Assembly (NCBI GenBank): GCA_023484085.1
Contig: JAMDAS010000008.1
Location: 35,946-83,028 of the forward strand
Length of the DNA stretch: 47,083 bases
DNA from: Candidatus Omnitrophota bacterium
Lineage (GTDB): Bacteria > Ratteibacteria > UBA8468 > B48-G9 > DTJG01
Direction of reading: 5' to 3'
Position numbers and translations under genes: made by a program. The notes under the pieces were generated by a model. The model was not told where the DNA came from and ran no database searches. It saw nothing but the letters and a program-made list of their open reading frames with translations. Positions 8,407-24,442 of the stretch are shown one piece after another; within the stretch, counting starts at the first letter, position 1; each line of letters opens with the position of its first letter.

Positions 8407-8436
8407 TTGACAAAAAGGATAAGTTAACTATATAAT
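8407..8436 (+). promoter_or_regulatory. P1: conserved promoter element TTGACA-N18-TATAAT
   Basis: TTGACA 8407-8412, AGTTAACTATATAAT 8422-8436; same core as P2-P4. Confidence 0.8.
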
Positions 8437-8478
8437 GGTAAATACTCAGTCCTAACGAACTGAATATTTACCATTATA
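8431..8478. promoter_or_regulatory. Long inverted repeat overlapping the -10 box of P1; likely autoregulatory operator
   Basis: TATAATGGTAAATACTCAGT-cctaacga-ACTGAATATTTACCATTATA; 19/20 complementary, 8-nt spacer. Confidence 0.75.
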
Positions 8479-8488
8479 GAAAACATGC

Positions 8489-9616
8489 ATGCCCATGAAG
8501 ATAAAAGAAAAGGATGTATCTGAAAAGATATTAAGGGTCTTAAAAGAGAAGTTTAACCAGGAAATAGCATTACCAAAATATTATAGGCTGAAGAAAATCC
8601 TTAAAAGTCAAATTTTAGAACAAAATATGTCTACAGGGGATAAACTTCCTTCAGTTCCCATTCTCGTAAAAGAATTAAATATTGCTGGAATAACCGCAGA
8701 TAAAACCCTTAATGAATTAGAAAAAGAAGGGCTTGTAAACCGTATCCAGGGAAAAGGAACGTTTGTCAGTAAGCCAAGAAGTGAAATAACGTCTAAAAAC
8801 GTAGTAGGTTTGATTATGTCAACACGCGGTCACCTATGGGGGCTTTTATACCATCATATTATTGAAGGTTTAAGTAATCATCACTACTATTGTGTTGCTA
8901 ATAACATAGTAAGTCATGAATTAATGGACACAAAATATACTGATAAACTGAACAGGCTGATTTCTTCAGAACCTTTTGGTTTGGTGGTCTATGGACAGTC
9001 CAGTTTTCCATTTCATATGCTTGAAGGTTTTCCAAACAAACTTTTGTTTATTGTAGCATATGAGACTGATAAAGAATACCCTGCGGATTATATTCTTTCC
9101 GACTATTTTGCAGGAGGACAAATGGTGGCAGATTATTTTATTTCTTCAGGCTATAAAAAAATCATCTTTTATACTCACCCAATTCAACCTCAGATTACTG
9201 CAAGAATACATCTTGTTTCCGGACTAAAGGATTCTTTGAAAAAAAATAATTTATCAGAAAAAAATCTGATTGTTGTGGAAAAAAACTTTTCACAAAAAGA
9301 CGAAAAGAGGCTGGAAGAAATACTTCAGAAAGAGCGCAAACCGGTTGCGGTTTTTTGTCTGCTTGATGCGGAAGCTGTAGTTGTATATAAAATTGCCCGA
9401 AAATTAAACTTAAAAATACCTGAACAGGTTTCAGTTATTGGATATTATAATACACCCTGGTGCGAAGTTTTACACCCCAACCTGACGTCTGTATCTATAC
9501 GTGAAGACAAAATAGCACAGATTGTAGTTAAGAAAATAGTAGGAAAAGAAAACAAAAAAGAAAAAATTATTCTTAAACCGAAACTTATTATCAGGGATTC
9601 AGTAATAAGCCTGTGA
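8489..9616 (+). CDS. Transcriptional regulator with GntR-type wHTH and LacI/PBP-like ligand-binding domain (AraR-like architecture)
   Basis: 'STGDKLPSVPILVKELNIAGITADKTLNELEKEGLVNRIQGKGTFV' (GntR) then 'KNVVGLIMSTRGHL...ISVIGYYNTPWCEVLHPNLTSVSI' (LacI-like). Confidence 0.85.
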   Translation: MPMKIKEKDVSEKILRVLKEKFNQEIALPKYYRLKKILKSQILEQNMSTGDKLPSVPILVKELNIAGITADKTLNELEKEGLVNRIQGKGTFVSKPRSEITSKNVVGLIMSTRGHLWGLLYHHIIEGLSNHHYYCVANNIVSHELMDTKYTDKLNRLISSEPFGLVVYGQSSFPFHMLEGFPNKLLFIVAYETDKEYPADYILSDYFAGGQMVADYFISSGYKKIIFYTHPIQPQITARIHLVSGLKDSLKKNNLSEKNLIVVEKNFSQKDEKRLEEILQKERKPVAVFCLLDAEAVVVYKIARKLNLKIPEQVSVIGYYNTPWCEVLHPNLTSVSIREDKIAQIVVKKIVGKENKKEKIILKPKLIIRDSVISL

Positions 9617-9642: not shown

Positions 9643-10830
9643 ATGAATAAGACGTCTCAGTCCCCTGTTGAGATAGTTGCAATATATTTCCCAAGCTGGC
9701 ACGTAAATGACCATTACCGGGCATGGTATGGTGAAAACTTTTGTGAATGGGAACTCGTTAAAAGTGCACGGCCGATATATCCTGGTCATCACCAACCTAA
9801 AATTCCATCATGGGGTTATTTTGATGAAAGTAATCCTGAATGGTCCAGCCGTGAAATTGACCTTGCCGCTAATCATGGAATAAACGTCTTTCTTTTTGAC
9901 TGGTACTGGTATAATGGTGTCCGGATTATGGAAGAAGCACTTGAAAAAGGTTTTCTGTGCGCACCGAATAGAAAAAGAATGAAATTTACAATTATGTGGG
10001 CAAATCATAACTGGGGTTCATGGCCTGCCATAACAGGAATTCCAGGTATGGGAAAAAGTGGAATCTGGCTGCCAATCCATCATTCAGCGAAAGACTGTGA
10101 CCGTGTTATTGATTACTGCTGCGCTCATTATTTTTCAGAATCAAATTACTGGCTTGTTGATGGGAAACCCGTTTTTGCAATTTATGACATGGCAACGTTT
10201 TCTTTACAACTCGGGGGAAATATCCGTGTAAAGGAAACACTTGAACGAATGAATGAAAGGGCAGTAAAGAATGGTTTTCCTGGTGTTTATTTTATTGCAA
10301 ACGTTGGTTGCTGCGACGATAACGTTTATTGTTGTGGCTGGAACAGAGTTCATGATGCAGGGGAAATGGGTTTTAAATGTGTATTTGCTTATAACATCGT
10401 GCGGACACCTGAGTATGAAACTCTGCCGGAAGATTTACCAATTGTTCAATACGAAGACGTCATTCAGTCTCACCTGTATGCCTGGGGGCAGATTGAAAAA
10501 GACGGTCTCCCACATTATCCTGTGGTAACATCAGGTTGTGATGTGACTCCAAGATGGCACAGGGGAATTAAACTCCCTATGGATTTTCGCTCATGGTCTT
10601 ATGAACCAATCATCGTGAATAACACACCTGAAAAATTTGGTTATTTATGCAGTCTTGCTCTCCGGCAAACACAAAAAAACCCACCCGGGCACAGGGCTGT
10701 TTTCATCAATGCATGGAATGAATGGACGGAAGGAATGTATCTTTTACCGGAAAAACGCTATGGTACTGCATATCTTGAGTCTCTCAGAAATGCCATTATC
10801 AGTGAAACTGTGGGTAAGCGTAAAATTTGA
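9643..10830 (+). CDS. WbsX/GH99-like glycan-active protein
   Basis: 'AIYFPSWHVND', 'FLFDWYWYNG', 'NWGSWPAI', 'AVFINAWNEWTEG' motifs. Confidence 0.75.
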   Translation: MNKTSQSPVEIVAIYFPSWHVNDHYRAWYGENFCEWELVKSARPIYPGHHQPKIPSWGYFDESNPEWSSREIDLAANHGINVFLFDWYWYNGVRIMEEALEKGFLCAPNRKRMKFTIMWANHNWGSWPAITGIPGMGKSGIWLPIHHSAKDCDRVIDYCCAHYFSESNYWLVDGKPVFAIYDMATFSLQLGGNIRVKETLERMNERAVKNGFPGVYFIANVGCCDDNVYCCGWNRVHDAGEMGFKCVFAYNIVRTPEYETLPEDLPIVQYEDVIQSHLYAWGQIEKDGLPHYPVVTSGCDVTPRWHRGIKLPMDFRSWSYEPIIVNNTPEKFGYLCSLALRQTQKNPPGHRAVFINAWNEWTEGMYLLPEKRYGTAYLESLRNAIISETVGKRKI

Positions 10831-10856
10831 CAATATTTACAAGTTAACTATATAAT
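10827..10856 (+). promoter_or_regulatory. P2: conserved promoter element
   Basis: TTGACA 10827-10832, N18, TATAAT 10851-10856; followed by CTGAATA-aaaa-TATGCAG dyad at 10862-10879. Confidence 0.8.
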
Positions 10857-10949: not shown

Positions 10950-11978
10950 ATGTTTGAAATTGAATTAAAAGGGACAAGTGAAAAAATCGGGGAACAAAGA
11001 GGGAATTTATTGAAACCCGTTATTACCATTTTTATGGAATATCTTATGAAGAACAGTAATTTTGGATTTTCTGAATGTATAGACTGGGCTTTAAACTGGA
11101 AAAACAAAATTTATGAAAGTTTTCCTGAATTAGCAAAAGAAATAAAGTCTTCAGCAAAAATCTCAGGAATAGAGGAAAATCTATTGTTTGCATATAATTT
11201 TAGAGCATGGAACGCTCTTTGTAAACATCCTTCCCACCCTGATTGTTATAACATTGGTTTTTCTGATAAAAATACGGGTCCTTTGCATGGGGGAATACTT
11301 GAAGACGGAATTTCTTATATTATTGAAAAAATAACCCCGCAGGATGGGTTTGAGCATATTTCTATTTCATTGCCTGGAACTGTGTGGTGTGTCAGGGGAA
11401 TGAATGAAAGGGGATTAACCTGCGGGCAGGTTTCTGCTTTTCCCGGGTTATATACAGGAGAAAGTGATTTTATTTTTGGAACGCAGGATTATGCCAGGAG
11501 TTATTTTATTTTACGGCATATTATGCAGTATTGTGAAAACGTGGAGGAGGCAATCAGGATTTTTAAGAAATTCTCAGGTATGGGAACCTTTATGTTTGCA
11601 GACAAAAATGATAAAATCGCAGTTGTGGAAAAAGCCGGGGAATTAACAGGGGTACGTTTCTGTGAAAATGATTATATTATCAGTGGCGGGCATTATCTAT
11701 GCAAAGACCTGCTGTTAAAACTTTCCGGAAAAAACATATATCACATACCGGCTGAAGGGCACATTAAAAGGCATTATGCAATTTTCAGACTGGTAAAAGA
11801 AAATGCCACCTCTTTGAAATTGATGAAAAAAATCCTGACATCATGTAAAGAAGAAGAAGGACAATTTTGCAATGACATCACACAATGTGCAACTATAGGA
11901 ATTCCAAAAAGCGGGCAGTTTTTAGTTGCAGGACATGTTCCATGCAGGAGTGAATTCAAATCCTTTGTTTTTAAGTGA
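10950..11978 (+). CDS. C45-family (acyl-CoA:6-APA acyltransferase-like) Ntn-hydrolase
   Basis: 'GEQRGNLL', candidate nucleophile 'DCYNIGFSDKNTGPLHGGILEDG', 'MNERGLTCG'. Confidence 0.7.
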   Translation: MFEIELKGTSEKIGEQRGNLLKPVITIFMEYLMKNSNFGFSECIDWALNWKNKIYESFPELAKEIKSSAKISGIEENLLFAYNFRAWNALCKHPSHPDCYNIGFSDKNTGPLHGGILEDGISYIIEKITPQDGFEHISISLPGTVWCVRGMNERGLTCGQVSAFPGLYTGESDFIFGTQDYARSYFILRHIMQYCENVEEAIRIFKKFSGMGTFMFADKNDKIAVVEKAGELTGVRFCENDYIISGGHYLCKDLLLKLSGKNIYHIPAEGHIKRHYAIFRLVKENATSLKLMKKILTSCKEEEGQFCNDITQCATIGIPKSGQFLVAGHVPCRSEFKSFVFK

Positions 11979-11990
11979 ACAGGAGGACAG

Positions 11991-12764
11991 ATGAAATTCG
12001 GATGCTGTGGCGGAATAAATGAAATAAAAGAGATAAAATATGCAGGTGCAGATTTTATAGAACTTCCTGTAGTAACCATTGCCAATATGGATACAGATCC
12101 CTTGAAATCCATGTTGAAGGACGTTTCTATATCACCATATTCTTTTAATATTTTTCTTCCAGGTGATTTAAAAATTACAGGACCAGCCGTAGACAAAGAA
12201 AAAGTGGAAATATATGTAAATAAGGCAATGGAAAAAGTAGGTCGTTTGGGAGGGAAAATAATTGTGTTTGGAAGCGGACGGGCAAGAACATTTCCTGAAA
12301 ATTATTCTCTTGAAAAAGGAAAACAGGATATAGTCAATTTTTTAAACATAGTATCTAAATATGCTCAAAAGTTCAATATTAAAATTGCTATTGAACCGCT
12401 GAATAAAAAAGAGTCTAATATATTAAATACTACATTAGAAGCGTTGGAAATCGCACGGATATTAAATAATCCTTATATTGGTGTTTTATTTGATAATTAT
12501 CATGCAGAAATAGAAAAAGAACCTCTTTCAAATCTTGAAAAAATTGGTGATAAACTTTATCATGTTCACTTATCAAACAAGGATAGAACGGCACCAGGTG
12601 AAAAAGATTATGATTTTAAAAAACTTTTTTCTGTTTTGAAGTATATAAACTATAAAGGCGGCATTTCCATTGAAAGTTCATTTAATGATAGACCCAAAGA
12701 GTTACCCCATAGTTTGGAATATTTAAAAAACATATGGAACACCCTACTCTTTACAGCAGGGTAG
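11991..12764 (+). CDS. Sugar phosphate isomerase/epimerase (TIM barrel)
   Basis: 'IAIEPLNKKESNILNTTLEAL', 'VLFDNYHAEIE', 'HVHLSNKDR'. Confidence 0.8.
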   Translation: MKFGCCGGINEIKEIKYAGADFIELPVVTIANMDTDPLKSMLKDVSISPYSFNIFLPGDLKITGPAVDKEKVEIYVNKAMEKVGRLGGKIIVFGSGRARTFPENYSLEKGKQDIVNFLNIVSKYAQKFNIKIAIEPLNKKESNILNTTLEALEIARILNNPYIGVLFDNYHAEIEKEPLSNLEKIGDKLYHVHLSNKDRTAPGEKDYDFKKLFSVLKYINYKGGISIESSFNDRPKELPHSLEYLKNIWNTLLFTAG

Positions 12765-12776
12765 ACTCTGGTAAAC

Positions 12777-14162
12777 ATGAAAAATTTAAAACTTGGTTTT
12801 GTTCCAATAGGAAAGTTTGTATTCAGCCATACAGATGCTTTAAAGTATAAAAAACTTATTGAAAACAAACTTCAGGAATGGGGAATACAGTACGTTTCAA
12901 TTGATAGTGTAATACCTGATGGAATGATACGGGAGCAGAAACATGTTGAAGCAACTGTTGAATTTTTGAAAGAAGAAAAAATAGATGGTTTATTCATACC
13001 TCATTGTAATTTTGGAACAGAAGGAGCAGCAGGTATGCTCGCAAAAAAACTTTCTGTGCCGGTTTTATTATGGGGACCAAAGGATGAAAAGCCCTTAAAG
13101 GACGGCACAAGGTTAAGAGATACCCTTTGCGGACTTTTCGCAACAAGCAAGGTTCTGCATAAGATTGGGGTTCCTTTTACATATATTGAAAATTGTAAAA
13201 TTGAAGATAATCTTTTAAAATCCGGAATAGAAAAATTTATAAGGGTTGTTTCAGTTGTAAAAAATTTTAAAAACATACGTATTGGACAGATTGGAGGCAG
13301 AATTGATTTTTTCTGGACGACGATAATCAATGAGAGTGAATTACTTGAAAGATTTGGAGTGGAAATATTTCCAATTGATATGATTGAATTCATTGATAAA
13401 ATTAAAAATAACACAAAAAAAAGAGAAAAAGAATATAAAGAAGAAATGAACCAGACCAAAAAGGAAATAAAATTTTCCGGTTTTGAAAATGAAGAATCAA
13501 TTTTAAATCTTTTCTCCATGAGAGACGTAATGCTTGATATTGCAAAAGAAGAAGGAATAACCGCATATGCAGTTCAATCTTTTATGAGTATCTGTAAACA
13601 ATTGGGTGGAATGGTTGAATTTGCAACAGCAATGGTTGGGGATAAGGGAATCCCTGTCGCCTGTGAAACAGACATTCATGGAGCAATAAGCTCTATTTTG
13701 CTTCAGTCTGCCTCCTTAAACAGGGAAATGGTTTTTGTTGCTGATTTGACTGTAAGACATCCTGAAAATGACAATGGCGTTTTATTGTGGCATTGTTCTT
13801 CTCCTCTTTCAATGAAAAACAAAACAGATAAAGGAAAAGTTTCCAATCATTGGATATTGCCCGGCATTCCATCAGGTTCCTGCCATTGGAAATTAAAAAG
13901 CGGTAATATTACTGTCTTAAGATTTGATGGGGATAATAAAGAGTATAGAATAATTTCAGGGGAGGGAAAAACAATTCCGGGCCCATATACTCAAAATGTC
14001 TATGTTTGGATAGAAGTTAAAAACTGGACTGAATGGGAAAGAAAATTTATTGAAGGGCCTTACATTCATCATGTTGCTTCCAACTACGGAAAATACTCAT
14101 CAATTATTGAAGAAAGTATAAAGTATTTACCTGGCAATATAAAATTTGAAAATTTAACTTAA
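12777..14162 (+). CDS. L-fucose/L-arabinose isomerase-family protein
   Basis: 'DGLFIPHCNFGTEGA', 'AVQSFMSICKQLGGM', 'PVACETDIHGAISS', 'WHCSSPLS' typical of the FucI/AraA-like fold. Confidence 0.7.
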   Translation: MKNLKLGFVPIGKFVFSHTDALKYKKLIENKLQEWGIQYVSIDSVIPDGMIREQKHVEATVEFLKEEKIDGLFIPHCNFGTEGAAGMLAKKLSVPVLLWGPKDEKPLKDGTRLRDTLCGLFATSKVLHKIGVPFTYIENCKIEDNLLKSGIEKFIRVVSVVKNFKNIRIGQIGGRIDFFWTTIINESELLERFGVEIFPIDMIEFIDKIKNNTKKREKEYKEEMNQTKKEIKFSGFENEESILNLFSMRDVMLDIAKEEGITAYAVQSFMSICKQLGGMVEFATAMVGDKGIPVACETDIHGAISSILLQSASLNREMVFVADLTVRHPENDNGVLLWHCSSPLSMKNKTDKGKVSNHWILPGIPSGSCHWKLKSGNITVLRFDGDNKEYRIISGEGKTIPGPYTQNVYVWIEVKNWTEWERKFIEGPYIHHVASNYGKYSSIIEESIKYLPGNIKFENLT

Positions 14163-17402: not shown

Positions 17403-17432
17403 TTGACAAAATTTATAAGTTAACTATATAAT
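17403..17432 (+). promoter_or_regulatory. P3: conserved promoter element
   Basis: TTGACAAAATTTATAAGTTAACTATATAAT. Confidence 0.85.
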
Positions 17433-17435
17433 TAT

Positions 17436-17451
17436 TCGTAAATATTTACGA
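17436..17451. promoter_or_regulatory. Perfect 16-bp palindrome just downstream of P3; candidate operator
   Basis: TCGTAAATATTTACGA. Confidence 0.75.
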
Positions 17452-23535: not shown

Positions 23536-23565
23536 TTGACAAACTTTATAAGTTAACTATATAAT
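23536..23565 (+). promoter_or_regulatory. P4: conserved promoter element
   Basis: TTGACAAACTTTATAAGTTAACTATATAAT; one mismatch from P3. Confidence 0.85.
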
Positions 23566-23568
23566 TAT

Positions 23569-23598
23569 GTAAATAGTCAAACTCATTTACAACGTAAA
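23569..23598. promoter_or_regulatory. Overlapping dyads downstream of P4
   Basis: GTAAAT-N10-ATTTAC (23569-23590) and TTTAC-aac-GTAAA (23586-23598). Confidence 0.6.
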
Positions 23599-23632: not shown

Positions 23633-24442
23633 ATGCGAAATGTAATGTGCGGAGTGAAACGAAGCATCCGCCAATCCTTATGGTGGACAGGAGTGAAACG
23701 AAGCATCCGCCAATCCTTATGGTGGACAGAAGAAAGAAAAATCGGTTTTACACTTATAGAGCTCCTGGTGGTAATTGCCATCATCGCTATCCTTGCAGCG
23801 ATGTTGCTACCGGCGTTGGCAAAAGCAAAAGAGAAAGCAGAAGAATCGGTCTCCATGAACAACCTGCACCAAATCGGTCTGGCGATAATGCTGTATACAC
23901 AGGATAATAATAGTTTTTTGCCCCCCGGGACCGCCTTTGTTGGGGGGAATTGGCAGAGATGGTTTTCTTATCTGGCAAGTTATGGTATTGATGCGACCAA
24001 AGGAGTCAATGGAATTCTGTATTCTCCTGTTGCCGGGACACAACTTTCAAACTACTATGGATTTACTGATATAAGTTATCTGTGGAACGGAAAAACCGGG
24101 GTCTTTGGGATGTATGGTCCGCAATCATTGAACGTTATAGAAAAACCCTCACAAGATATTATTGTTAGTGATGGGCAATGGGTATACGACCCTGCTTCTC
24201 CTGAATTTAATGGGAACTTATATTATTATCGTGTGTCATATTGTGGCCGCTGTTTCGTGGGGAGTCCAGACACCACCTTCTGGTTGCCGGGAATAGATAA
24301 TGGAGGCAGTCTTTACCTCTTTTTGGACGGGTCTGTCGGGTGGTACAGCGCAGCCCAGTATAGTGGAAGTCTGCAATACGAAGGGGACCCTTTTTATGAT
24401 GGATATATTGGTAACGTAACTTGGAATAATCCAGGATTTTAA
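23633..24442 (+). CDS. Type II/IV pseudopilin-like protein with H-X9-DG/DUF1559-like C-terminus
   Basis: '[33 protein letters not shown]'; C-term '[12 protein letters not shown]'; SD aaaggagg. Confidence 0.9.
23651..23728 (+). repeat. Exact tandem duplication of a 39-bp unit in the pseudopilin leader
   Basis: ggagtgaaacgaagcatccgccaatccttatggtggaca at 23651-23689 and 23690-23728; in frame (13 codons). Confidence 0.97.

Follow-up and report, generated by a model that had tools for sequence, protein, structure and literature searches.

A palindrome in the promoter of a GntR-LacI type regulator of an Omnitrophota bacterium most likely contains the end of an IS66-type miniature element

The regulator gene and its promoter

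The window, which is the whole stretch of 47,083 nucleotides analysed here, carries on its forward strand a GntR-LacI type regulator gene (8489-9616). The gene encodes 375 amino acids with a winged helix-turn-helix and a periplasmic-binding-type sensor. The domains GntR (PF00392) and Peripla_BP_3 (PF13377) both scored above their cut-offs, in agreement with the class assigned in the original prediction. No NCBIfam equivalog matched the regulator at its cut-off. A scan of the named genomes for relatives of the regulator returned one close protein, from an Omnitrophota MAG, and the remainder were distant. In the genome of the same genus (G001), no orthologue closer than 48% was found. The strong promoter expected upstream was also present on the forward strand (TTGACA-N18-TATAAT, 8407-8436). 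TTGACA lies at 8407-8412 and TATAAT at 8431-8436, separated by 18 nt, and all 12 of 12 positions match the sigma-70-type consensus. Further along the window, the gene at 12777-14162 distantly resembles sulfoquinovose isomerase (NF048012, E 1e-35, far below the cut-off) and lies in the same cluster as L-ribulose-5-phosphate-epimerase-like genes.

An inverted repeat that begins at the -10 hexamer

An inverted repeat occupies positions 8431-8478. Its arms, TATAATGGTAAATACTCAGT (8431-8450) and ACTGAATATTTACCATTATA (8459-8478), are 20 nt long and complementary at 19 of 20 positions (95%, one mismatch), with an 8-nt spacer (8451-8458). The left arm and TATAAT both begin at 8431, so the geometry was the same as that first described from the letters of the DNA. 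No other inverted repeat in the 47 kb window combines arms of 20 nt, at least 19/20 complementarity and a spacer of 3-20 nt, and 60 first-order Markov simulations of the window yielded none. The repeat is far beyond chance. Folded as single-stranded DNA, 8431-8478 gave -13.5 kcal/mol (z -8.5). Promoter sequence makes up the outer 7 bp of each arm (TATAATG/CATTATA), and the inner 13 bp (GTAAATACTCAGT/ACTGAATATTTAC) are part of a dispersed element.

The core of the palindrome in a dispersed miniature element

Genome-wide counts were made by pattern searches in the bacterium's own genome (G000; 906 kb, 63% complete) and in two relatives, G001 and a member of the same family (G003). The core GTAAATACTCAGTCCTRACGAACTGAA occurs at two further places in the own genome, where it is the end of a dispersed miniature transposon. 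These copies, which carry CAGTCCTRACGAACTG, lie at C12:37588 and C14:53667. Window positions 8438-8464 match their left end: the 27-nt stretch GTAAATACTCAGTCCTGACGAACTGAA is present in the C12 copy, and in the C14 copy with few changes. After this stretch, both copies continue into AGGCACAAAG...CTTTGTGCCT, and the right arm of the window is absent there. In the C14 region 53200-54200, the copy lies between a short RiPP-precursor-like ORF and PqqD-like and radical SAM-like genes.

With the C12 copy as the query, many related repeats were found in G001 and G003. Pairs of the form GTAAATA-N0-30-TATTTAC numbered 24 in G003, 4 in G001 and 3 in the own genome, and the reversed-pattern control in G003 gave 2 pairs. 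The counts in G001 and the own genome were not above the control number, so that in these two genomes the case depends on the sequence of the copies. Many of the G003 copies lie a few dozen bases from contig ends, where multi-copy repeats tend to fall. Copies with GTAAATA-N-TATTTAC ends are thus multiple, dispersed and free of coding capacity, as is expected of MITEs. Complete copies in the sister genomes have GTAAATAYTCASTGAA at one end and its inverse at the other. Three complete copies are flanked by target duplications (GTTTTAAA, 8/8; TATTATAT, 8/8; the third, 7/8), and the other listed copies have none. The window copy likewise has no direct target duplication and is a relic, minimally the end-to-end sequence GTAAATACTCAGTCCTAACGAACTGAATATTTAC at 8438-8471 (+). 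A second end-to-end relic in the own genome, GTAAATACTCAGTGAATATTTAC at C3:28666, is 23 bp long. The 21-mer core had no match in GTDB genome contigs. Two viral contigs with the core were rejected because their surroundings were unlike the element, and matches of CAGTCCTRACGAACTG in relatives beyond the own genome were set aside for their unrelated surroundings.

Relation to IS66-type elements

The terminal repeats and target duplications of the complete copies pointed to IS66-type elements. In G001, contig C5 carries an IS66 transposase gene (NF033517, E 7e-77; PF03050) within a 2487-bp element. The ends of this element, GTAAATCCTCAGTCAACCCCGT and GTAAATATTCACTGAACCCCGT, are bordered by the duplication ATAGAAAC (8/8) and match both the dispersed family and the window core, as the terminal repeats of an IS66-derived MITE should. 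No IS66 transposase was found in the own genome, which is 63% complete. Because the core occurs in dispersed copies and an IS66 element has matching ends, the palindrome most likely contains the end or ends of an IS66-type miniature element, judged by sequence comparison. In kind, the case is ordinary: a mobile-element end is fused with a promoter.

Among known elements, the IS66 family (ISBst12 group) offers the closest likeness. ISDge4 has the ends GTGACTACTCAGCA and GTAACTGCTCAGCA and an 8-bp repeat (PMC12898284); the GTAA-type ends and the 8-bp target duplication are shared, and the ISDge4 ends resemble GTAAATACTCAGTGAA. Unlike such elements, the window copy has no coding capacity and no direct repeat and consists of 34 bp plus copied flanks. 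REP and REPIN sequences are also short, palindromic, dispersed intergenic repeats, some of them in inverted pairs, but the window family has target duplications and GTAAAT ends and lacks the GTAG tag. As no RAYT (Y1_Tnp) transposase was found in G000 or G001 and the tag is missing, identity with REP/REPIN was rejected.

Origin of the right arm

The element part of the palindrome is GTAAATACTCAGT...ACTGAA. Past ACTGAA, the C12 and C14 copies continue into GGCACAAAG, whereas the window continues into TATTTACCATTATA, the exact inverse of TATAATGGTAAATA. The sole arm mismatch (C/A) falls to the element side of the junction, and the C12 copy has it as well. Beyond the junction, 14 of 14 positions pair, and 7 of these 14 outer bases are host promoter sequence, whose pairing by chance has a probability of about 1e-4. 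One template switch would explain the junction seen against C12 and C14, the position of the mismatch, the pairing of the host flank and the lack of a direct duplication. In the proposed series of events, an IS66-type miniature element with the terminal repeat GTAAATAYTCASTGAA would have inserted at -10/+1 of the sigma-70-type promoter of the regulator. The small hairpin at the end of the element (TCAGT...ACTGA) would then have been the site of a template switch that copied the left terminal repeat and the host -10 sequence back in inverted form. The result would be the perfect outer 14 bp (TATAATGGTAAATA/TATTTACCATTATA), with the remainder of the element replaced. Template-switch (quasipalindrome) mutation is a described mechanism (PMC8794818), and the window arm resembles its products, in which a short stem already present is lengthened by a reverse-complement copy. 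We believe that the mobile-element end was probably extended into the -10 box in this way, a reading drawn from one locus that has no ancestral sequence beside it. The locus plausibly illustrates how a mobile-element end can grow a longer hairpin by template switching into a host promoter.

A plain deletion that joined the left end of the element to its right end would also leave an end-to-end relic, with neither template switching nor function. This account differs from the best explanation solely in the origin of the right arm. The relic at C3:28666 is a precedent, and TGAATATTTAC is the normal right end of the element. But the deletion leaves the seven extra complementary host-flank bases, with their low chance probability, unexplained, and also the lack of a direct target duplication. 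We considered it somewhat unlikely.

A candidate operator in the -35/-10 spacer

The own genome contains exactly five occurrences of the string TTGACA-N10-AAGTTAACTATATAAT (expected number, about 2e-6), and no other genome among the 97 searched contains it. The first occurrence is the regulator promoter itself. The second promoter (10827-10856, +) is upstream of an AAT/C45-like gene (10950-11978) and has an orthologous promoter on contig C18 of G001. The third (17403-17432, +) precedes a secreted GH123-like gene of 1367 amino acids, the fourth (23536-23565, +) precedes a prepilin-like gene, and the fifth, on contig C13, precedes a second prepilin-like gene. The block is 90% identical among the five promoters, and the 40 nt upstream of it are unrelated (28% identity). 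Within the -35/-10 spacer of all five, AAGTTAACTA is invariant (8421-8430, + strand, at the regulator). None of the other four promoters repeats the 20-bp arms, whereas AAGTTAACTA is present in all of them.

Another helix-turn-helix is shared by paralogous regulators in G001 and on contig C3 of the own genome, and these regulators have TTGACATATYAATATAT at their own promoters. The same element is found in G001 at the promoters of one secreted-protein gene and two prepilin-like genes, and the spacer elements of the paralogues are about 9 nt closer to the -35 than AAGTTAACTA. Two regulator types with two spacer motifs are what one would expect if each regulator recognised the spacers of its own and its target promoters. 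AAGTTAACTA is a better operator candidate than the hairpin. The regulator would bind it between -35 and -10 and block RNA polymerase, and repression would be lifted once the C-terminal domain is occupied by an effector, probably a sugar. The predicted targets are the regulator's own gene and the neighbouring sugar-metabolism and secreted-protein genes. The original prediction had assigned autorepression to the repeat. Autoregulation is likely, because the regulator promoter shares TTGACA-N10-AAGTTAACTATATAAT with four other promoters, and it would act through the spacer rather than the hairpin. We put at roughly 0.6 the probability that the palindrome is an IS66-type MITE end with a template-switched arm and that the regulator acts through the predicted spacer site AAGTTAACTA.

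A comparable architecture is known from AraR of Bacillus subtilis, which also joins a GntR DNA-binding domain to a LacI/GalR-type sensor. The promoter set of AraR includes its own, as araR carries a box (PMC4218819), and the candidate set of the window regulator likewise includes the regulator's own promoter. The AraR boxes are compact 16-bp sites with the consensus At(T/A)tGTaCGTAcaa(A/T)T (PMC4218819), whereas the candidate operator of the window regulator is AAGTTAACTA, within the -35/-10 spacer. A concrete regulon is proposed in an uncultured lineage, where GntR-LacI paralogues appear to be read out via short -35/-10 spacer motifs.

Recent promoter duplication, rather than selection for an operator, could in part account for the identical blocks. 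Separately, a short tandem duplication was noted at the N-terminus of the prepilin-like gene (23633-23760). A prepilin-like gene at G001:C38:3104 apparently has a captured promoter, since it is preceded by a fused segment of a paralogous regulator gene that comprises promoter, leader and the first ~15 codons. Two promoters of paralogous regulators (G001:C44 and G001:C17) have ACTCAACTCGTACAAAAATTTGAC in front of them, and the end of an integrase-like coding sequence just upstream on C17 suggests an insertion sequence ending at the -35.

Half-sites behind the -10 box and the hairpin as a possible operator

Pairs of GTAAAT and ATTTAC begin 1-5 nt after the -10 at the regulator, GH123-like and prepilin-like promoters, with spacers of 22, 0 and 10 nt. 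At the third promoter, the palindrome CGTAAATATTTACG (17437-17450) lies 4 nt past the -10 and is possibly a collapsed element relic or a half-site pair. At the fourth, the inverted repeat GTAAATAGTCAAACTCATTTAC (23569-23590) lies 3 nt past the -10 and is possibly a decayed relic. Exact GTAAAT-N0-30-ATTTAC pairs occur only at these three places in 124 kb of the own genome. GTAAAC takes this position at the C13 promoter, and no half-site follows the -10 of the AAT promoter, so that a GTAAAT-type start recurs in four of the five promoters. Decay of copies of one old insertion, spread by promoter duplication, would explain the pairs; functional half-sites would explain them equally.

If the inverted repeat or its half-sites were the operator, a dimer or tetramer on both arms would repress the regulator gene. 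The repeat overlaps the -10 and the start site, the spacers of the three pairs, unique in 124 kb, approximate helical steps, and GTAAAT...ATTTAC fits the broad GT...AC consensus of GntR regulators (PMC4494728). Against this, the core is common to mobile-element copies at unrelated genes, with ends that match the IS66 element. The distance between the arms ranges from 0 to 22 nt, the pair is missing from two of the five promoters, it is the spacer block that is invariant across the set, and the known GntR-LacI member AraR uses compact boxes. The hairpin is therefore unlikely to be the operator as originally proposed, and with the half-sites included we still judged the chance to be small. A promoter palindrome is not automatically an operator.

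A related arrangement was seen in the sister species. On contig C18 of G001, two orthologues of window genes are adjacent, that of the WbsX-like gene at 9643 and that of the TIM-barrel gene at 11991. Their intergenic region contains TTGACAAACTTTATAAGTTAATTGTTAACTATATGAT, followed directly by a complete 116-bp element, GTAAATACTCAGTC..., so that a member of the family sits immediately after the -10 of a set promoter at another gene. IS66-type terminal repeats might have been recruited repeatedly just after the -10 within one regulon and might tune its promoters, as half-sites of flexible spacing or as supercoil-sensitive cruciforms. This idea, based on three of the five promoters and the full element at the orthologous promoter, is speculative, and we gave it little credence.

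The element as a possible RNA structure

A 5'-terminal stem-loop could instead stabilise or attenuate the regulator mRNA, and a start at 8440 would keep a 10-bp stem (-6.0 kcal/mol, z -2.5). MITEs are often transcribed and affect the stability of neighbouring mRNAs (PMC3733652). This role is improbable, as the canonical start (8442-8444) keeps a 5-bp stem only and loses most of the left arm, no terminator-like site was predicted, no Rfam family matched at a credible score, and the pairs at 17437 and 23569 give no RNA hairpin of their own. Attenuation by a hairpin that acts only in RNA, named in the original prediction as one case that would overturn it, is likewise weak, with the left arm mostly outside the expected transcript. 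The Rfam hits were sub-threshold chance matches, and a hammerhead-like core (CUGACGA) was rejected because the window copy reads CTAACGA. Sites of the GGAGG type precede the neighbouring genes, but positions 8472-8488, before the regulator's ATG (8489), contain no Shine-Dalgarno-like sequence; the regulator's site may have been displaced by the element.
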